Below, piece after piece: positions 7,449-16,654 of a DNA stretch of 61,679 bases (position 1 is its first letter; every line of letters starts with the position of its first letter). Below the pieces are notes generated by a model. The model did no database searches and was not told the DNA's origin. It was given only the letters and a program-made list of their open reading frames with translations. The position numbers and the translations under genes were made by a program. This stretch comes from Clostridia bacterium (GTDB lineage Bacteria > Bacillota > DTU025), in NCBI GenBank assembly GCA_034926675.1, contig JAYFQW010000059.1, positions 1 through 61,679 of the forward strand. Direction: 5' to 3'.

Positions 7449-8447
7449 ATGAAGCGTGGTCTACTCGTTGTTCTGTCATGCCTTGCCCTCGCCGCTCTAA
7501 TGGTCGCACCGGCGATAGCAGCCGAGAAGGTCGTGGCGTACACCACTCTCGACGAACCGCTCGCACGCGAGGCGTTCGCGGCGTTCGAGAAGGACACTGG
7601 GATAAAGGTCGAGTGGGTGAGGCTCACCACCGGCGAGGCCGTGGCTAGGATGGAAGCCGAGTCCGGAAATCCACAGGCCAGCATATGGTACGGCGGTGTG
7701 GGCCTAGGCCACATCGAGGCCAAGAACAAGGGGCTGACGACGCCCTACAAGTCGGCTGCCGCCAACCACATCCCCAAGCAGTTCAGGGACAAAGACAACT
7801 ACTGGATCGGAATCTATGCAGGCCCGCTCTCCTTTGCCAGCAACATCCAGAGGCTAAAGGAGCTGAAGGTTGAGGCCCCGACCTCATGGGCCGATCTTCT
7901 CAAGCCTCAGTTCAAGAACCAGATCCAGATGGCGAACCCAGGCACGTCTGGAACTGCTTACAACATGCTGGCCACTATAGTCCAGCTGTGGGGCGAGGAG
8001 AAGGCCTTCCAGTATCTCAAGGCTCTCGATAAGAACATGTCGCAGTACACCAAATCAGGCTCAGCGCCTGGAAAGAGCGCAGCCTTGGGCGAGTGCGCAG
8101 TGGCAATCGGCTACGCCCACGATCAGGTCAAGCTTATTTCCCAAGGATACCCCATCACGATCACCTTCGCATCGGAGGGAACTGGCTTTGAGGTCGCTTC
8201 GATCTCGCTGGTCAAGGGCGGGAAGCAGCCGGAGAACGCGAAGAAGCTCTACGATTGGGGCCTCGGAGCCAGGGCGGCTGAGATCTATGCCAAGATGGGC
8301 GTTGTCCCGTTTGTAAAGGTTCAGCTCATGCCCGGCGCGATCCCGATAGATCAGGTCAACACCATTGATCAGGACGATGTGTGGGCCGCATCCCAGAAGG
8401 AGAGGCTCGTGGAACGCTGGAACAACGAGATCTACAGCAGCAGGTAG
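7449..8447 (+). CDS. ABC substrate-binding protein, AfuA/FbpA-type
   Basis: A 332-residue periplasmic-type binding protein with a signal peptide ending APAIAA. The mature part opens with VVAYTTLDEPLAREAFAAFEKDTGIKV, typical of the iron(III)/AfuA family, and contains the hinge pattern NPGTSGTAYNMLATIVQLWG. The Tyr-Tyr pair that holds iron in FbpA proteins is not obvious: the equivalent stretch reads AIGYAHDQV. Another substrate, such as a sugar phosphate, phosphonate or polyamine-like anion, is therefore possible. The SD GGAGGAGG is at 7434-7441 and a CTGGGC/GCCCAG hairpin lies just before it (7410-7426). It is the first gene of a binding protein-permease-ATPase set. Confidence 0.9.
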   Translation: MKRGLLVVLSCLALAALMVAPAIAAEKVVAYTTLDEPLAREAFAAFEKDTGIKVEWVRLTTGEAVARMEAESGNPQASIWYGGVGLGHIEAKNKGLTTPYKSAAANHIPKQFRDKDNYWIGIYAGPLSFASNIQRLKELKVEAPTSWADLLKPQFKNQIQMANPGTSGTAYNMLATIVQLWGEEKAFQYLKALDKNMSQYTKSGSAPGKSAALGECAVAIGYAHDQVKLISQGYPITITFASEGTGFEVASISLVKGGKQPENAKKLYDWGLGARAAEIYAKMGVVPFVKVQLMPGAIPIDQVNTIDQDDVWAASQKERLVERWNNEIYSSR

Positions 8448-8487
8448 TTGCCAAGCGTGCCTGAGATCTCGCATGGGAACTCATGAT

Positions 8488-8513
8488 GGGGAGGCAGCAA
8501 ACGCCGCCTCCCC
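8488..8513 (+). terminator. Hairpin between binding protein and permease genes
   Basis: GGGGAGGC (8488-8495) pairs with GCCTCCCC (8506-8513), followed by GTTTCT. It lies 40 nt after the binding-protein stop. Such stem-loops commonly act as partial terminators or mRNA 3' stabilisers that raise binding-protein level above permease level. Confidence 0.6.
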
Positions 8514-8538
8514 GTTTCTAGCTAAGGGGGGTGGATCA

Positions 8539-10254
8539 GTGGGATCAGCTACTGCTACAAGGCACGACGCGCCCCGGACCAGCAGATCACGAGAGCTATC
8601 GTCGAACCTGAGGGCGCTCGCGCGCGACCCGATGCTTCTCATCACACTCATAGCAGTGGTCATTCTCCTATTTGTCTTCGTGGTCTATCCAGTGTTCAAA
8701 GTGCTGTGGCTAAGCATCGCTCCCAAGGGCAAGCTCAGCCTCGACACGTACAGATACGTCCTCAAGCAGAGGTGGCTCCGAAAGTCGTTCACGAATAGTT
8801 TCAGGCTCGGCGCGATAGTAGCCACAACCTCAACGATAATCGGCTTCATCTTCGCATTCGGGCTCAATCGCGCCAATGCGCGGCCCGCGCAATTCCTTCG
8901 GCAGATGGCGCTTCTTCCAATCATATCTCCGCCGTTCATGTTCACCCTATCTGTGATACTCCTCTTGGGCCGAAACGGGCTGATCACAAAGCAACTTCTG
9001 GGAATTCAGGACTTCAATGTGTACGGCCTGTGGAGCCTGGTCTTTGTGCAGACTCTCGGCATGTTCCCCATCGCCTACATGGTCCTCGACGGCGTCCTCA
9101 AGGCGATCAACGCCGACCTTGAGGATGGCGCTCTGAACCTGGGCGCCTCCCGGGTTGCCGTGTTCCGGACCATAACTCTGCCGCTTGCCATGCCTGGGCT
9201 CGCAAGCTCTTGGCTTCTCGTATTCGTTACATCGCTTGCAGACTTCGCAAACCCCATGGTGCTCTCGGGTAGGTATGATGTCCTGTCGGTTCAGGCCTAC
9301 CTGCAATTCACGGGGATGTTCAACATGCCCCGAGGTTCGGCCCTGGCCATCATGCTCCTTATCCCGGCCATGATCGCGTTTGCGGTGGAAAGGTACTGGG
9401 TGTCGCGCAAGTCGTATGTGACGGTTACAGGCAAACCCAGTATGCACACCATACCCATGGTCTCACCTGGCGTAACCATGCTCTGCCAGGCGGTGTGTTG
9501 GGCAGTGTCCGTCATAACCATCATGTTCTACTCAGTGGTGATAGCCGGCGCTTTCGTTAAGCTATGGGGAGTGAACTGGACCCCGACCTTCGAGCATTTC
9601 AGATATGCGTGGGACGTAGGAAGGCAGAGCATTAGGTCCACAGTGATCATGGCTGCCGGAGCGACCCCAGTCACCGGAGTGCTCGCCATGGTTATCGCAT
9701 TTCTGCTCGTGCGCAAGGAGTTTCCTGGCAAGAGCCTGCTCGGATTCACGTCGATGCTGGGCTTCGCAGTGCCCGGAACGGTCGTGGGCATTGGGTACAT
9801 CCTTGCGTTCAACAAACCTCCGCTTCTCCTCACTGGAACCCCTTTTATAATCATGCTGTGCTTCGTGTTCCGCGAGATGCCAGTGGGCATAGAAGCGGGC
9901 GTCGCATCGCTGCAACAGATCGATCGCTCCATAGAAGAGGCATCGACGAACCTCGGAGCTGGAACGAGATACACCTTCCAGCACATCACGCTTCCGCTGG
10001 TCCGCCCTGCAATGCTGGCAGGCCTCTCATACACCTTCGTCCGCAGCATGACAGCTGTGAGCGCCGTGGTCTTCCTCGTGTCGGCCAGGTGGAATCATCT
10101 CACATGCCTTGTGCTGTCGCAGACTGAGATCATGAGGCTCGGCGCAGCCAGTGTCCTCTCCATCATCCTCATAGTCATCGTGATGGCCGCGTTCGCCATA
10201 ATGAGGGCGTTCGTGGGCGAACAGCGATCGCCAAGCGGGATGATTCCCAGGTAG
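8539..10254 (+). CDS. Fused ABC permease, FbpB/ThiP-like two-domain
   Basis: A 571-residue inner-membrane protein containing two permease modules in one chain. Each has an EAA loop: EDGALNLGASRVAVFRTITLPLAMPGL in the first half and EEASTNLGAGTRYTFQHITLPLVRPAML in the second. About twelve membrane helices are visible. I chose GTG 8539, seven bases after AAGGGGGG; the longer frame runs back through the hairpin into the binding-protein gene. This single-chain architecture is standard for iron(III)-type importers. It is followed 40 bp later by its ATPase. Confidence 0.92.
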   Translation: MGSATATRHDAPRTSRSRELSSNLRALARDPMLLITLIAVVILLFVFVVYPVFKVLWLSIAPKGKLSLDTYRYVLKQRWLRKSFTNSFRLGAIVATTSTIIGFIFAFGLNRANARPAQFLRQMALLPIISPPFMFTLSVILLLGRNGLITKQLLGIQDFNVYGLWSLVFVQTLGMFPIAYMVLDGVLKAINADLEDGALNLGASRVAVFRTITLPLAMPGLASSWLLVFVTSLADFANPMVLSGRYDVLSVQAYLQFTGMFNMPRGSALAIMLLIPAMIAFAVERYWVSRKSYVTVTGKPSMHTIPMVSPGVTMLCQAVCWAVSVITIMFYSVVIAGAFVKLWGVNWTPTFEHFRYAWDVGRQSIRSTVIMAAGATPVTGVLAMVIAFLLVRKEFPGKSLLGFTSMLGFAVPGTVVGIGYILAFNKPPLLLTGTPFIIMLCFVFREMPVGIEAGVASLQQIDRSIEEASTNLGAGTRYTFQHITLPLVRPAMLAGLSYTFVRSMTAVSAVVFLVSARWNHLTCLVLSQTEIMRLGAASVLSIILIVIVMAAFAIMRAFVGEQRSPSGMIPR

Positions 10255-10293
10255 AGCAGGTTACGGCAGAAGGTTGGCAGGAGTTGAGTTGAA

Positions 10294-11475
10294 ATGTCGA
10301 TCTCAGCAAAGAGCGTTAAGCTCGATGGCCTCACCAAGGTGTTCGTTAGCCCAGGCGGCGCTCAGGCAGCAGCCGCAGACAACGTCTGCCTCACCATCAA
10401 CGAAGGCGAGCTAGTCACCTTCCTTGGCCCCTCCGGGTGTGGGAAAACCACCACCCTCCGGATGGTCGCCGGTTTCGAGAATCCAACATCAGGCCGTGTG
10501 CTCATAGGCGACCGCGACGTGACCAATGTGGCCCCGAACAACCGCGACACCGCCATGGTGTTCCAGAGCTACGCGCTGTTCCCTCACATGACCGTTGGCG
10601 AAAATGTGGCGTACGGCCTGCGGTTCAGAAAGGCTGGCAATGCCGAGAAGCACGAACGGACGAAGCGGATGATGGAGTTGGTCGGGCTTACGGGATTCGA
10701 ATCTCGCCAGCCAGGGCAGCTATCAGGTGGGCAGCAGCAGCGCGTTGCTCTCGCTCGCGCACTGGTGGTAGAGCCTCAGGTGCTGCTGTTCGATGAACCA
10801 CTCTCGAACCTCGATGCTAAGCTCCGCGAGCAGATGCGAGAGGAGATCCGCAGAATCCAGCAGCGGCTGTCGATCACGGCTATATATGTGACTCACGACC
10901 AGTCTGAGGCGATGGCCATCTCCGACAGGATTGTGATAATGAACCGCGGTCGGATCGAGCAGGTTGGCACGCCTCGAGAGGTGTACTCCGAGCCTATTTC
11001 GAGGTTCGTGGCCGATTTCATCGGCCGTGTGAATTTCCTACCTGGCCTGATGGTTGGCTGCGTCAGGACGCCCGCCGCCCTGCCTGTCCAGCAGGCCGGC
11101 GCCGCCTCAGGGCGAGACTTCTTCAGGGTGAATCTGTTCGGGCAGGAGATCCTTGTGGAGGGTGTCGCAGGCCTAGATGAGAAGGCTTCCGAGTGCGGAG
11201 GACGTGTGCTGGTTGTGTGCAGGCCTGAGGCCGCGTCGCTTGCTCGCGCCGATACCGGCGAGGAACCTCCTGCCCATACCAGTGGGCGGGTCATCAAGGC
11301 GGTCTACTTCGGTTCCTACATGGAGTACGGACTTGAGCTTGACGGAATGGACGCCGGCAGTCCGCCCTTCACACTTATTGATCACAATCCGGCTAGGAGC
11401 ACGCCTCTTGAGGTGGGCGACACAGCTGGCATCAGGTTCGACGAGAACTCCCTGCACGTGCTGGCGGCCGAGTAG
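10294..11475 (+). CDS. ABC importer ATPase, FbpC/PotA-like
   Basis: A 393-residue ATPase. Walker A GPSGCGKTTT is at 45-54, the Q-loop is MVFQSYALFP, the signature LSGGQQQ at 143-149, Walker B VLLFDEP at 163-169 and the switch His at 201. A C-terminal TOBE-like domain of about 140 residues follows. It is the last gene of the importer operon that begins at 7449 and energises the fused permease. FbpC, PotA and CysA cannot be separated by sequence alone; the neighbouring binding protein points to the AfuA/FbpA group. Confidence 0.93.
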   Translation: MSISAKSVKLDGLTKVFVSPGGAQAAAADNVCLTINEGELVTFLGPSGCGKTTTLRMVAGFENPTSGRVLIGDRDVTNVAPNNRDTAMVFQSYALFPHMTVGENVAYGLRFRKAGNAEKHERTKRMMELVGLTGFESRQPGQLSGGQQQRVALARALVVEPQVLLFDEPLSNLDAKLREQMREEIRRIQQRLSITAIYVTHDQSEAMAISDRIVIMNRGRIEQVGTPREVYSEPISRFVADFIGRVNFLPGLMVGCVRTPAALPVQQAGAASGRDFFRVNLFGQEILVEGVAGLDEKASECGGRVLVVCRPEAASLARADTGEEPPAHTSGRVIKAVYFGSYMEYGLELDGMDAGSPPFTLIDHNPARSTPLEVGDTAGIRFDENSLHVLAAE

Positions 11476-11917
11476 TGCCGTAGGGTCCGGCCTGTGGTGA
11501 GGCGAACCCGCGACGAGTGTCGCACTGGTCATAGTGATCAGCTCCGCCTTTCTGCATGCGCAGCACGTTCTTCCTCGCCGGGGCATCGACGAGACATCCG
11601 GCAGTGAGTGACTGGACATCAGCGAAGGCTCCCAGCGGGGGCGTGCTCGTATTGCTATGCGTCCTGCGCATGGCGTGCGTGGCGCCGTTGACCGCCTGGG
11701 GGCCTTCGCGCTTCATTATGTCCGGTGGTTGCCCGGCCTTACTATCCGCACCCAAGTGCGCTGGGGAAGGCGCCCGAACCTCCCGCAACTTTCCATGATG
11801 ATCAGACAGATTAAGGTGCAATGCATGGAAATACGATCAACCGGAAGGTCAATTGCGCTGGGCACGGAATAAGCCAATATGGGCACGCCGCACAATAGTC
11901 GAAAGGAGAATGCCCTG
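11476..11917. other. Intergenic stretch upstream of the DUF1538 operon
   Basis: This 442-bp gap has no frame with a credible SD and protein-like content. It holds a small GCGAC/GTCGC hairpin at 11510-11523 soon after the ATPase gene. The region near 11800-11880 is richer in A and T and may hold the DUF1538 promoter. I could not identify one with confidence. Confidence 0.4.
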
Positions 11918-12622
11918 TTGACGTCGCCGCTATGCCAGGCGCTCATGGAAGTAATCACGGCCGTGGCTCCACTCACAATCGCCGTCGCGTCCCTCGGCGC
12001 ACTCTTCCTGGATGTGTCATGGACTGATCTGGCGCGCATCGCCATCGGCGCCTCATTCGCCGCCATTGGACTCCTCTTCTTCCTCCGTGGGACAAGAATC
12101 GCGCTTCTGCCCATGGGCGAGATCATCGGTGCAAGCCTTCCCGCACGTAGTTCCCCAGCTCTTCTGGTGATCACTGCGTTCGTGTTCAGTTTCAGCGTCA
12201 CCATCGCAGATCCGTCGCTGCACGTACTCACTGCGCAAGTGGCCTCTCTCCAAGACTCATCCCTGAGTGTGCGCATGCTGGGCGTGATGATATCCTCGGG
12301 GATGGGCTTTCTGGTGACAGTTGCGATGCTCCGCATCGTCCTGAACATCCCTTCGCGGCTCCTGTTCATCGCGGGGTATTCCATCGCGATACTGTTGTCC
12401 TTCTTCACAGTGCCTGAGCTGGCGCCGCTCTTCTTCGACTCGGGTTCGGCGGCAACCGGCCCGATGGTAGTGCCCTGCGTAATCGCTCTGGGCCTTGGGA
12501 CAGCTTCAGTTCTGCAGCGGAAGAGATCGCTTGCCGATGAGTTTGGCCTTGTGGGGCTCGCGACTCTGGGTCCTGTCCTGGTGATGATGGTCTGGGGGGT
12601 GATCGTCAGATGGACCCGATGA
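11918..12622 (+). CDS. DUF1538 membrane protein A
   Basis: A 234-residue integral membrane protein with about six helices. DUF1538 hallmarks are LFFLRGTRIALLPMGEIIG and FDSGSAATGPMVVPCVIALG. The start is TTG 11918, nine bases after AAAGGAG (11902-11908). It overlaps the next DUF1538 gene by 13 nt. DUF1538 proteins are predicted transporters of unknown substrate. In some genomes two such domains occur in one chain, so the two proteins here are probably two halves of one complex (inference). Confidence 0.85.
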   Translation: MTSPLCQALMEVITAVAPLTIAVASLGALFLDVSWTDLARIAIGASFAAIGLLFFLRGTRIALLPMGEIIGASLPARSSPALLVITAFVFSFSVTIADPSLHVLTAQVASLQDSSLSVRMLGVMISSGMGFLVTVAMLRIVLNIPSRLLFIAGYSIAILLSFFTVPELAPLFFDSGSAATGPMVVPCVIALGLGTASVLQRKRSLADEFGLVGLATLGPVLVMMVWGVIVRWTR

Positions 12623-13443
12623 TGATCGGCGCCCTTGAGGCAGCACAGGCAGCACAGGCCTGTGGAGCAGGCGGGGCGGGCGGGAGTGCGTGGGCGGCAA
12701 TGGGGCTTGCAGTCTTCAGCGGGTTTGGCGCCGTGGCGGCTGAGGTTGCTCGGACGCTCATCCCCCTCGGAGTGCTGTTCGTTGTGTTCCAGGTGCTGTT
12801 CCTGAGGCTTCCTAGAGCATTCGTGCGCAGGGTGGCCGCCGGAATGATCTCCACGTTCGTAGGACTGGCTCTGTTCCTCCAGGGCGTGAATATCGCCTTC
12901 GTCCCCATGGGGCACAGGCTCGGCGCCAAGCTGGGGCTTCTCGCGCAGCCTTGGGTTGTTGCGCCTGTTGGGTTCATCCTAGGGCTGCTGGTGGTGCTGG
13001 CGGAGCCATCAGCGCAGGTGCTGAGCGAGGAGGTTGAGAAGGCGTCAAGCGGTCACATCCGCGCAAGGACTCTCCTTCTCACCATGGCCGGAGGCGTCGC
13101 TCTTCTTGTGTCGCTCGGCTATTGCCTCATCACCCTGGGAATACCGTTGACCAGGATCATCATCCCCGGCTATCTTCTCGCACTGGGGCTGCTCCGCTGG
13201 ATCGATCCTGCATTCGTGGCGATCGCCTTCGATGCGGGCGCAGTCGCCACGGGGCCGCTCACTGTGACCTTTCTGATGTCGCTGGGCCTAGGCATCGCCG
13301 CCGCACAACGGGGAAAGCCCACACTGGATTCAGGGTTCGGGCTTGTGTGCCTCATAGCCCTTGCCTCAACACTTGCTGTTGAGGGTCTGAGTTTCGTCTA
13401 CCGGGGAAGCGCTGCTGGAAAAGATGGGAGGAATACGCCGTGA
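12610..13443 (+). CDS. DUF1538 membrane protein B
   Basis: A 277-residue paralogue of the upstream gene, with about seven helices and the same motifs: LFLQGVNIAFVPMGHRLG and FDAGAVATGPLTVTFLMSLG. The ATG at 12610 follows a GGGGGGTGA stretch and lies inside the end of gene A. Its stop overlaps the start of the PII-like gene. The N terminus carries an Ala/Gly-rich stretch encoded by short direct repeats (GGCAGCACA). Paralogy to gene A and tight spacing support a heteromeric membrane unit. Confidence 0.87.
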   Translation: MDPMMIGALEAAQAAQACGAGGAGGSAWAAMGLAVFSGFGAVAAEVARTLIPLGVLFVVFQVLFLRLPRAFVRRVAAGMISTFVGLALFLQGVNIAFVPMGHRLGAKLGLLAQPWVVAPVGFILGLLVVLAEPSAQVLSEEVEKASSGHIRARTLLLTMAGGVALLVSLGYCLITLGIPLTRIIIPGYLLALGLLRWIDPAFVAIAFDAGAVATGPLTVTFLMSLGLGIAAAQRGKPTLDSGFGLVCLIALASTLAVEGLSFVYRGSAAGKDGRNTP

Positions 13444-13769
13444 CAAAGCCTTACGACCTGATAGTGACGATAATCAACAAGGGCTGGGCAGACGAGATAG
13501 TGCAGGCCTCACGCCGCGCGGGCGCGGAGGGAGGCACAATCCTCTACGGCCGCGGAACCGGTGTACACGAACGGATGCGGTTCCTCGGCGTATTGATCGA
13601 GCCGGAGAAGGAAGTAGTGCTCACATTGATTCCACATGAGCTCACAGATCAGGTGCTGCAGGCCATCGTCGAATCAGGGCATCTGGAGAAGCCTGGAACA
13701 GGCATATCCTTTGTGCTCGATGTATCCAAAATCGCGGGAATAGTGCACATGCCCACGGATGGTGAATGA
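13440..13769 (+). CDS. PII-like signal protein linked to DUF1538
   Basis: A 109-residue protein with the ferredoxin-like PII fold: YDLIVTIINKGWADEIVQASRRAGAEGGTILYGRGTG, a short T-loop region, then a second beta-alpha-beta ending in a PTDGE tail. GTG 13440 overlaps the preceding TGA and GGGAGG lies eight bases upstream, so translation is coupled. PII proteins sense nucleotides and gate transporters or enzymes. The canonical uridylylated Tyr of GlnB's T-loop is not evident, so control would be by ligand binding only (inference). Its likely partner is the DUF1538 pair. Confidence 0.85.
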   Translation: MTKPYDLIVTIINKGWADEIVQASRRAGAEGGTILYGRGTGVHERMRFLGVLIEPEKEVVLTLIPHELTDQVLQAIVESGHLEKPGTGISFVLDVSKIAGIVHMPTDGE

Positions 13770-13799
13770 GGGGAAGGCCCACATATGGCAGCCCGTGTT

Positions 13800-14522
13800 T
13801 CACATCGCTCTGAACTCGGGCGACTCCACGAACTGCACAAGATTCTCGAACCGGCCCCTCATGTCCGGCTCCCTGCGGTCGGGCCCGCGGTCAAGCATGA
13901 AGTCCTCAACCAGGTAGGTGGTGATCCCTAAATCCCCTGCCACCATGTCTTCGAGGCAGTCGTTCCCCACCATCATGCATTCCTCAGGCGACCTGCCGAT
14001 GCGGTCGAGTATTTCCTCATAATACTCGATATTCGGCTTGCAGTAGTGTGAGGTCTCATACGATGTGACGTGCGCATAGGGCAATCCATCCACCCCGCCC
14101 CACCGCATTCTCTCGGTGATGGCCTCCATCGGGAAGACCGGGTTGGTGGCAATCACGACATCGTACCCCGTTTCGAGAAGCCCCTCGATCATCTCTCTCG
14201 CCTTGGGGTGCGGCACTACCTCCAGCGTTTGGCGCAAACTCGGGAAATCGTCGGCGTAGAAAGAGTCAAGCGCCGGCGCCAGGCCATCCACAAGCCCTAT
14301 CCGGGCCTCGAAATCCTCCCAGAACACCTGGCGAACTGTTTTGGCTGGATTCTGCGATCTCACCATCGTCTCAGTGGAGGCCAGGAGTTGCCGGATGAAC
14401 TGGCGCGGTTCAACGAAGCTCGCCACGCATAAACTAATGGCCTGGATGTACCCGTTTAGGAACCGATCGTAGTCTAGGGGCACTAGAGTCCCGTCCAAGT
14501 CGAACATGACAGTCCGAATCAC
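13800..14522 (-). CDS. HAD-superfamily hydrolase
   Basis: A 240-residue cytoplasmic phosphatase-type protein. Motif I is MFDLDGTLV (nucleophile D8, acid D10), motif II is VIATNP, motif III is probably the Lys in HYCKPN, and motif IV is MMVGNDCLEDMVAG. A four-helix cap lies between motifs I and II, as in C1-cap HADs. The start is GTG 14522 with GAGG seven bases upstream. It is convergent with the PII-like gene and 27 bp downstream of the isomerase-like gene. The substrate is unknown; sugar phosphates would fit its neighbour. Confidence 0.88.
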   Translation of the reverse strand: MIRTVMFDLDGTLVPLDYDRFLNGYIQAISLCVASFVEPRQFIRQLLASTETMVRSQNPAKTVRQVFWEDFEARIGLVDGLAPALDSFYADDFPSLRQTLEVVPHPKAREMIEGLLETGYDVVIATNPVFPMEAITERMRWGGVDGLPYAHVTSYETSHYCKPNIEYYEEILDRIGRSPEECMMVGNDCLEDMVAGDLGITTYLVEDFMLDRGPDRREPDMRGRFENLVQFVESPEFRAM

Positions 14523-14549
14523 ATGATCACCTCGGTAGCGAATTTCTGC

Positions 14550-15806
14550 TCACCGCTGGCAGTACTCTGATAGCAGCCCAGTCCAGTCGCCGGCAATCAG
14601 CAGGTGGTGATTGCCCAGAGGGCGCCGCAGCATTTGGCGGGCATCGCCTGGGAAATCGAATCTCACCGCCGCCTGCGTTCTGCACATGTCCTCCCTGGGG
14701 ATGGACCTCTCAATACTGCCGCCTGCGATGAACGCCCCATCGAGCCCGCGCCCTCCGAGGCGCAACACCGTTGCCCTCCCCGGACTGAGTTCCCCCGCTA
14801 TCCCCACCCCTATGCCCGATTCGAAATGCGAACGCAATCTGTGTCGAGCAGTCATGGTGCGGGCGATTGTACAATGGGCGAAGGTTACGACTCCACCCTC
14901 CGGGTCAATGGAGGACGGATTGGCCATGAAGCTCGGCTGATCGGCTGCCTCGTGCACCAGGAGCATCCCAATGCATGATAGCACATCTGCCTCACATGCA
15001 GCCGGGATTCCCTCCTCGTTCAGGCGAGCCAGGGCATAGCACCCAGTATTATGTACAGTATCCAGCAAATCGAAACACCTGACCGCAACCGCATCAAGCC
15101 CTTCCGAGTCCACTATGCCTCGAAGCGCGACATAGAGCGCTCCTGCCCCTGCCATGGTGTCCAGAGAAGGCTCACACACTCGCTCGGCTCTCGCCGCCAG
15201 GTCTTCCGCAGCCGCACGCGCCTCTCCCTCACCCACAGCCCGGTAAGCGTTGATCAGCGTCTCCACGGGCATCTGAACAATCGTCGGCCCCCATGCGCGC
15301 TTGACCCGGTCCTCCATCTCCCACTGAGGCATCACCTCGATATCCCTGGTCCCGATCAGACCGATCCTGGCCCTTCCGAGCCTGGAACGTACCGCGGTCA
15401 ACTGAAGCAAGGAGAGGAGTTCGGCCTGCCATCCATTGCGGATCTGCACTATCCTTCCCCGCCTGCCCTGCATGTTGGCGAAAGCAAGGATCTCCAAGGC
15501 CGCAGGCAGGGCGTTATCCGCGCAGTGGGCTAGCATCAACATGGGGTCATTGGCGCCGGCCAGGAAGGACAGGGCCTGCGCCTCAGTGCCGCCGCTCAGT
15601 ATGAGGAGCACAGTGGCATCAGGCTCTCCCTTACTCGCCATCACATGCCAACCATCGCAACGACCAGCATGTGCCCAGCTAGTTGCGTCTACCTGGAGCT
15701 GGACTCCCTCAATCCGGCTAAGCTCCGCTATGCAGTGACCGAGCCGTTCCTGCATCGCGCCGGAATCGCGCAGGCACGAAGCGAATGGCGCCACTCGGAC
15801 CAGCAT
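14550..15806 (-). CDS. Fucose-isomerase-like protein
   Basis: A 418-residue protein resembling the L-fucose isomerase-related family. Features are the acidic metal-site region EADVLSCIGMLL, PSSIDPEGGVVTFAHCTIA, and a C-terminal segment NHHLLIAGDW typical of fucose/arabinose isomerase C domains. The substrate-binding N-terminal half is divergent. ATG 15806 was chosen because GGAGGGGA lies directly upstream; the longer frame adds 19 unlikely residues. If active it would interconvert an aldose and ketose with a divalent metal. The family also contains proteins of unknown function, so the exact reaction is uncertain. Confidence 0.72.
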   Translation of the reverse strand: MLVRVAPFASCLRDSGAMQERLGHCIAELSRIEGVQLQVDATSWAHAGRCDGWHVMASKGEPDATVLLILSGGTEAQALSFLAGANDPMLMLAHCADNALPAALEILAFANMQGRRGRIVQIRNGWQAELLSLLQLTAVRSRLGRARIGLIGTRDIEVMPQWEMEDRVKRAWGPTIVQMPVETLINAYRAVGEGEARAAAEDLAARAERVCEPSLDTMAGAGALYVALRGIVDSEGLDAVAVRCFDLLDTVHNTGCYALARLNEEGIPAACEADVLSCIGMLLVHEAADQPSFMANPSSIDPEGGVVTFAHCTIARTMTARHRLRSHFESGIGVGIAGELSPGRATVLRLGGRGLDGAFIAGGSIERSIPREDMCRTQAAVRFDFPGDARQMLRRPLGNHHLLIAGDWTGLLSEYCQR

Positions 15807-15859
15807 CGAACTCCCCTCCATATTCGGACCATCGACCGCCATTCCCCCGGGGCATCTTC

Positions 15860-16654
15860 TCACTGCCCTGGAATAGGCATTGGCGCTGCTTCAGGGCCAA
15901 TGCCCGGCGGTATGGGGCAAGGCTCGATGCACGGAACGGTCCTGGCATCCTTCAGGCTGAAGCTGACGCCAAGAACTGCGACATCGTCGAACCCGACGTA
16001 GGCAGGAACAAACTCATTCTGAATGTAGAAAGCCAAGTACGACGTTGAGCCAAGTGCAGGGCATCCCAAAGAACGACCGTTCAACTGGTTTCCGTTCACG
16101 TACACATCAGCCAGCCCCAGCACCGAACTGACCGATAGCTCGTTCACGGCAGTGCCCGGGCTTATGCCCGACGCGCTTCCGCCGCTGGCGATTGGGGCAC
16201 TGGCCCACCCGCCGTCGTACTTCCTGACCTCCCATGTTTGAGCGTTAGGGTCAACGCGGAATAGGTAGAACTTGGTGTTGCTCGTTGCACCTCCGCTCCC
16301 GGTTACTCCGAATGCCAGCCCATAGGAGGCATTCGTTGCTGGCTGCTCCAGCCAAGCCTTCGCGGTAGCGCTGAAATGCTGCAGCGAGCTTACCGGGAAT
16401 CCAGCCGTGGCCGTCTTCGGGCGCCCACTCACGTCCATGTGATAGTAGCCCGACAGCCCAGAACCGACCCGGCCCCAGGACGCGGATTGATCGGGAGAAC
16501 TGCCAGAGGGCCATGGATTCGCCGCGGTGCTGAAGTCGTCGTACAGCACGCGAGTCTCCACCCTGAGCGGGCCGAAACATCCGGACAATGCCAGCGGGGC
16601 GATGAGAAGTGCGATAGCCCAAAGGCTAGCCCTGGCAAAGCGGGTCTTTCTCAT
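15860..16654 (-). CDS. Secreted lipoprotein with LamG-like fold
   Basis: A 264-residue protein starting at ATG 16654, seven bases after GGGGGG. The N terminus MRKTRFARASLWAIALL continues to the lipobox LSGC, so it should be lipid-anchored. The mature part (DDFSTAANPW, YYHMDVSGRP, SLQHFSATAKAWL, AFYIQNEF, GFDDVAVLG) has the alternating strands and closing DDV motif of concanavalin/LamG-like jelly rolls seen in extracellular carbohydrate-binding proteins. A polyproline-like tail ends it. Ligand unknown. It sits between the VanZ-like and isomerase-like genes on the same strand. Confidence 0.75.
   Translation of the reverse strand: MRKTRFARASLWAIALLIAPLALSGCFGPLRVETRVLYDDFSTAANPWPSGSSPDQSASWGRVGSGLSGYYHMDVSGRPKTATAGFPVSSLQHFSATAKAWLEQPATNASYGLAFGVTGSGGATSNTKFYLFRVDPNAQTWEVRKYDGGWASAPIASGGSASGISPGTAVNELSVSSVLGLADVYVNGNQLNGRSLGCPALGSTSYLAFYIQNEFVPAYVGFDDVAVLGVSFSLKDARTVPCIEPCPIPPGIGPEAAPMPIPGQ

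Follow-up and report, generated by a model that had tools for sequence, protein, structure and literature searches.

The three genes at positions 11,918 to 13,769 of the window (the whole 61,679-nucleotide stretch of Clostridia bacterium DNA that was analysed) are best read, with a probability that we put at about 0.7, as an operon for a monovalent cation/proton antiporter of the UmpAB type equipped with its own PII-fold regulatory subunit, which would answer a signal other than nitrogen. A PII-gated transporter made of DUF1538 proteins had been proposed in the first-pass annotation, and the near-absolute genomic linkage between the two types of genes makes a PII-controlled transporter of two DUF1538 subunits the best reading of the locus. 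Linkage is no proof of contact between PII and transporter, and it is by interpretation that we infer the docking, the gating, the ligand, and an UmpAB-like activity of the pair in the window.

Organisation of the operon

All three genes are on the forward strand. They encode the DUF1538 protein A (11,918 to 12,622; 234 amino acids from TTG 11,918; PF07556, E 5.2e-53), the DUF1538 protein B (12,610 to 13,443; 277 amino acids; PF07556, E 3e-59; model pLDDT 86), and the PII-fold protein (13,440 to 13,769; 109 amino acids from a GTG start; model pLDDT 83). The overlaps between A and B (13 bases) and between B and the PII gene (4 bases) are ordinary stop/start overlaps within an operon. A longer reading frame of A is possible from ATG 11,879. 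Since the starts of homologues align instead with TTG 11,918, and since an AGGAG resembling a ribosome-binding site (11,904 to 11,908, forward strand) ends 9 bases 5' of it, this TTG is most likely the start, as initially annotated. ATG 12,700 is a second candidate start of B and likewise fits the N-terminus of homologues. The GTG of the PII gene is preceded by GGGAGGA (13,426 to 13,432, forward strand), which, like the AGGAG, was read from the sequence as resembling a ribosome-binding site.

Upstream (7,449 to 11,475) lies an ABC transporter set resembling those for 2-aminoethylphosphonate uptake, with matches to the phnS2 and PhnT2 models below cut-off, and downstream a HAD-type hydrolase gene (13,800 to 14,522, minus strand) is convergent with the PII gene. 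Given these neighbours, the operon most likely consists of the three genes A, B, and PII. Next to the hydrolase, a 437-residue protein (14,550 to 15,863, minus strand) has no Pfam match and weakly matches the NCBIfam sulfoquinovose isomerase model (52.5 bits, for a cut-off of 700). The Rfam search of positions 10,000 to 15,000 gave no RNA element at E<=1, no known ion or c-di-AMP RNA element reached the gathering score in the loci of 15 relatives, and the promoter and terminator scans yielded no more than shuffled sequence.

Linkage of DUF1538 and PII across genomes

We surveyed 398 genomes of the phylum of the window, detecting PII with a profile of the type found there (A1). DUF1538 was present in 138 genomes, A1 PII in 149, and both in 136 (Fisher p 3e-88, a value overstated by the relatedness of the genomes). 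Both genomes with DUF1538 only have an explanation. In one (G305), the contig ends right behind the DUF1538 gene. The other (G066, C1:2161174-2161630; L204, L205) carries a remnant of DUF1538 with six internal stops and has no A1 PII match, as if transporter and regulator had been lost together. Among the 13 genomes with A1 PII only, 12 give a strong match to the CPA-type PII (see below), and the remaining genome, G366, has the type linked to CitMHS.

The linkage is also local. The PII gene is directly downstream of DUF1538 in 71 of the 72 distinct DUF1538 loci that were read, and the remaining one runs off its contig; an order so constant indicates a gene set far beyond chance. These 72 loci include 24 that are the window or were found by the PII search and 48 found by DUF1538, 47 of which have the PII gene; the count excludes the four loci with PII and no DUF1538 (L017, L018, L107, L116) as well as further copies of a place already counted. 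Among the matches listed, at least 127 of 150 for DUF1538 have a listed PII match within 2.5 kb, and at least 109 of 150 for PII are accompanied by DUF1538. Nine places were checked among the 23 listed DUF1538 matches that have no listed PII: at eight, a PII of two domains follows directly downstream, and the ninth is the contig end of G305.

The association extends to plasmids and to other lineages. Searches of 72,556 plasmid records with the two proteins gave the identical 9 records, and four annotated plasmid examples belong to Alphaproteobacteria and Clostridia. Further named loci were found in Halalkalibacter, Evansella, Rubrobacter, and Desulfurivibrio. RefSeq already carries the gene-level annotation of these neighbours, and the NCBI name for the relatives of the PII protein is 'P-II family nitrogen regulator'. 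In the conjugative plasmid NZ_CP120363.1 of Chelativorans (L171:2621-3959), the first DUF1538 gene is annotated with 273 bases and is perhaps truncated, with the second DUF1538 gene and the PII gene intact.

The architecture of the 72 loci is variable, but in a regular manner. The window is of the kind with two DUF1538 genes and a single PII gene (18 loci, plus 3 cut). In others, the two DUF1538 genes come with either a tandem PII of two domains (15 loci, and 4 more whose DUF1538 part is cut) or a pair of PII genes (9). A fused DUF1538 gene is accompanied by a tandem PII in 15 loci, and in 4 more that are cut, and by a pair of PII genes in 1. Three arrangements were seen once: three DUF1538 and two PII genes, a single DUF1538 with a single PII, and a fused DUF1538 at a contig end. 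Wherever the PII beside a fused DUF1538 pair can be read, which is the case in 20 loci (4 of them cut), there are two PII domains. The locus with three DUF1538 genes, in Rubrobacter (L009:3534-6421), has the order DUF1538, DUF1538, PII, DUF1538, PII, so that the third DUF1538 gene has a PII of its own.

The DUF1538 pair and its relation to UmpAB

Both membrane proteins match PF07556 over the full length of the profile (A 179.9 and B 200.3 bits, for a gathering score of 22.6), and they are paralogues with 30% identity, so the initial description of two paralogous membrane proteins and a PII-like gene in overlapping frames is borne out. So is the motif FDxGxxxTGP reported for both: its D, T, G, and P occur without exception in the 29 DUF1538 proteins aligned, and the invariant Asp and TGP of each half are candidates for the ion site. 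Structure comparisons gave little. Foldseek with the DUF1538 model returned no match at E<=0.001, and the profile search of PDB sequences returned no DUF1538 match. The VIA comparison, for residues of approximately 100 to 267 of the model of B, placed membrane domains of the Mg2+ channel MgtE near the top, tied with unrelated helical proteins, and these matches are weak (Z 5.6, 5.4, 5.3, and 4.6; rmsd 3.4-3.7; 108-110 residues aligned). In these comparisons, no solved structure is convincingly like DUF1538.

The first-pass annotation had left the substrate unknown, which is too weak a statement. The DUF1538 pair UmpAB of Halomonas zhaodongensis was described as a heterodimer, shown by co-immunoprecipitation, that exchanges Na+, Li+, or K+ for H+, and co-expression of UmpA and UmpB rescued E. 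coli KNabc (PMC5484666). The activity is documented there by complementation and vesicle assays from one laboratory. The clone functional in E. coli had four described ORFs, none of them a PII in the available text, which suggests that PII is not needed for transport (PMC5484666). The window proteins remain far below the cut-offs of 490 and 500 of the NCBIfam models for UmpA and UmpB (NF041627 and NF041628: A 91.3 and 87.5 bits, B 76 and 70.2 bits); they are DUF1538 relatives whose function, at such scores, is not certain to be that of UmpAB. DUF1538 also appears in a table of genes linked to optimal growth pH in a 2026 paper (PMC13255231).

A tree of 64 of the 131 sequences separates DUF1538 proteins of the first position from those of the second, each as a clade (SH-aLRT 100), and the halves of fused proteins fall on the matching sides; A and B are ancient paralogues. 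To compare their orientations, we counted K+R in alternate loops of a seven-helix frame drawn from hydropathy, the positive-inside rule being that the charge bias of loops predicts orientation in the membrane. With the termini included, the bias is negative in 42/42 A proteins and 21/21 N-terminal halves of fused proteins, and positive in 44/47 B proteins and 21/21 C-terminal halves. Without the termini, it is still negative in 39/42 A and positive in 41/47 B proteins. The bias is stronger with loops widened by 2 or 4 residues and weaker with loops narrowed by 2 (A negative in 29/42). A is below zero and B above it in 35 of 42 separate pairs and in all 21 fused pairs, and the window proteins follow the trend (A -5, B +2). 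Under the positive-inside rule, these opposite biases predict a C-terminus outside for A and inside for B, the two being probably oppositely inserted halves of one antiporter. With an odd number of helices, a fused protein can join such halves without an extra helix. The heterodimer suggested at first pass gains support from this opposite bias and from the co-immunoprecipitation of the homologous pair (PMC5484666).

The PII-fold protein

The product of the third gene belongs to the P-II family by its PF00543 score (31.3 bits for a cut-off of 25, E 2.7e-7), and the best fold matches of its model are PII structures (Z 11.2, rmsd 2.7, 86 residues aligned). We compared 115 DUF1538-linked PII domains with E. 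coli GlnB and 16 canonical PIIs from relatives, 17 controls in all, at Tyr51, which we take to be the uridylylation site of E. coli GlnB, and at Gln39, Lys90, Arg101, and Arg103, which we take to be the canonical residues for 2-oxoglutarate and ATP. The canonical controls keep them in 12, 16, 17, 17, and 17 of 17 cases, respectively. The window protein has L, H, I, G, and V at these positions and thus lacks the residues typical of GlnB and GlnK. None of the 115 linked domains has Tyr51, which agrees with the earlier remark that an obvious uridylylation Tyr is missing, and none has Gln39 or Lys90; Asp88 and Arg101 are each found in one (with Gly in 105 at the latter position) and Arg103 in 9. 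The T-loop is approximately five residues shorter than in canonical PIIs. Lys58 is kept in 106/115, and high conservation persists at the equivalents of the canonical cleft (G39~G35, K57~K58, G88~G89, G100~R101), which suggests a ligand pocket that was kept and remodelled. The C-terminal R-loop with a Cys pair of SbtB (PMC10117731) is absent, there being no Cys in the window protein, a weak criterion because some SbtB proteins may lack the motif. The tree gives no supported placement of the single PII of the window with respect to the first or the second PII of paired loci.

The genome of the window, 97.27% complete, contains no match to Amt (PF00909), which is matched in 14/14 control genomes, and no canonical PII, there being no second PF00543 match at E<=0.001. 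We rejected a canonical PII acting in nitrogen control on these residues (Gln39, Lys90, Arg101, Arg103, and Tyr51) and on genome content.

PII genes beside other transporter families

The PIIs found without DUF1538 adjoin permeases of the CitMHS/ArsB type in 4/4 loci (L017:3515-7167, L018:4893-6770, L107:4658-6592, L116:4994-6858), one of which (L018) has a cobalamin riboswitch upstream of PII. The CitMHS family includes non-antiporters too. These PIIs, which are of the type of the window, have a T-loop shortened by a further three residues, and they fall in the tree among DUF1538-linked PIIs in a branching that is not resolved. We also took ten other places with weak PF00543 matches, chosen for the absence of DUF1538 alongside. 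All are beside a transporter-like gene: nine neighbours match Na_H_Exchanger (PF00999), and the one other neighbour, at a contig end, is a fragment of 76 residues. A search of the phylum with these CPA-type PIIs found the exchanger gene adjacent in all of the 30 best loci, approximately ten of which were already among the earlier places. The genome of the window has such a PII as well (contig 6, 61,914 to 62,258; L186:253-1860), directly before a Na_H_Exchanger (PF00999) gene and with a PF00543 score of 19.5 bits, below the cut-off of 25. CPA-type PIIs join the tree inside the DUF1538-type radiation via a branch of length 4.26 with support 81/24, and with this weak support we claim no common origin of the two types. 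PII-fold genes accompany three transporter families unrelated by Pfam, and their position beside CitMHS-type and Na_H_Exchanger genes is an independent pointer to ion exchange.

Discussion

In the mechanism that we propose, A and B would be homologous seven-helix subunits that are inserted in opposite orientations and together make one inverted-repeat antiporter, with the invariant Asp of FDxGxxxTGP in each half as a candidate ion or proton site. The PII-like protein would, presumably as a trimer, dock on the cytoplasmic face of A and B and switch transport with its shortened T-loop. Its input would come from the cytoplasm and differ from the canonical one of ATP, 2-oxoglutarate, and uridylylation; our guesses are the ion itself or an adenine nucleotide or dinucleotide (AMP or c-di-AMP, for example). 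The mode of action may resemble that of SbtB on SbtA (PMC10117731), with a different partner and signal.

Could the pair instead carry a nitrogenous or organic solute, with PII signalling nitrogen status as GlnK does on AmtB? Membership of the P-II family and the NCBI name 'P-II family nitrogen regulator' would be in favour of it, but we consider it quite unlikely, because the canonical residues are almost entirely lost from the 115 linked domains, because neither Amt nor a canonical PII was found in the nearly complete genome, and because the homologous pair is described as a cation/proton antiporter (PMC5484666). The same loss of ligand residues could mean that PII is a constitutive structural subunit or an assembly factor of the DUF1538 complex rather than a ligand-driven switch, and the two PII domains beside fused pairs look as if copy numbers were matched. 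This is unlikely in our view, since the conserved cleft-equivalent positions argue for an altered pocket, many loci combine two DUF1538 genes with a single PII gene, and UmpAB is active without any PII described in the text available (PMC5484666). That PII serves other cytoplasmic targets, with the co-expression of the antiporter being incidental, has a precedent in the several partners of SbtB (PMC10117731) and of canonical PIIs; it seems very unlikely given a linkage nearly without exception across several phyla and plasmids, and given that the pseudogenised DUF1538 locus coincides with the absence of A1 PII.

A PII-controlled antiporter in the window may be one case of a general class, a proposal for which we see the chances as evenly balanced. 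PII-fold proteins would be subunits of cation/proton antiporters of the DUF1538-pair type (often with two PII domains), of a CitMHS/ArsB offshoot, and of a separate Na_H_Exchanger/CPA type, with a remodelled cleft sensing ion, pH, or energy state rather than nitrogen, and the DUF1538 pair would be an antiparallel inverted-repeat antiporter spread over two genes.

PII proteins are mostly treated as sensors of carbon and nitrogen. If our reading is true, a widespread branch of them ties PII signalling to the control of pH, salt, and membrane energy, and a weakly characterised antiporter gains a topology model as well as a regulator, whose ligand becomes a testable question, in a logic that extends to CPA antiporters. 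The genes are small and adjacent, so binding and gating are directly testable. In the open-access literature, a scope outside which most subscription papers lie, we found no report linking DUF1538 or UmpAB to PII, or PII to an antiporter. Pairs of PII and transporter were already known; what is new here, as far as we could see, are DUF1538 and CPA antiporters as the partners.

One of these pairs is that of GlnK and AmtB, a PII-fold protein with a membrane transporter. The operon shares this composition and differs from the GlnK-AmtB system, which is named in PMC10117731, in that its genome has no Amt and its PII has no uridylylation Tyr and none of the 2-oxoglutarate/ATP residues. The Na+/HCO3- symporter SbtA and SbtB, a PII-like regulator that binds adenine nucleotides, has a Cys R-loop, and acts from the cytoplasmic side via its T-loop (PMC10117731), are likewise a transporter encoded in one operon with a PII-fold protein, although SbtA is from another family and the window PII has no Cys and other cleft residues. 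PsmrAB, a paired antiporter of the small multidrug-resistance kind as presented in PMC5484666, differs in having three transmembrane segments rather than seven, no sequence identity, and no PII gene described, and is alike in that two homologous membrane proteins are jointly required for Na+/H+ antiport. The text available of the UmpAB paper contains neither PII nor 'topolog' nor 'inverted' (PMC5484666). The window pair, far below the NCBIfam cut-offs for UmpA and UmpB, resembles UmpAB in its adjacent overlapping DUF1538 genes, in approximately seven transmembrane segments for each protein, and in the hydrophilic C-terminus of the second.
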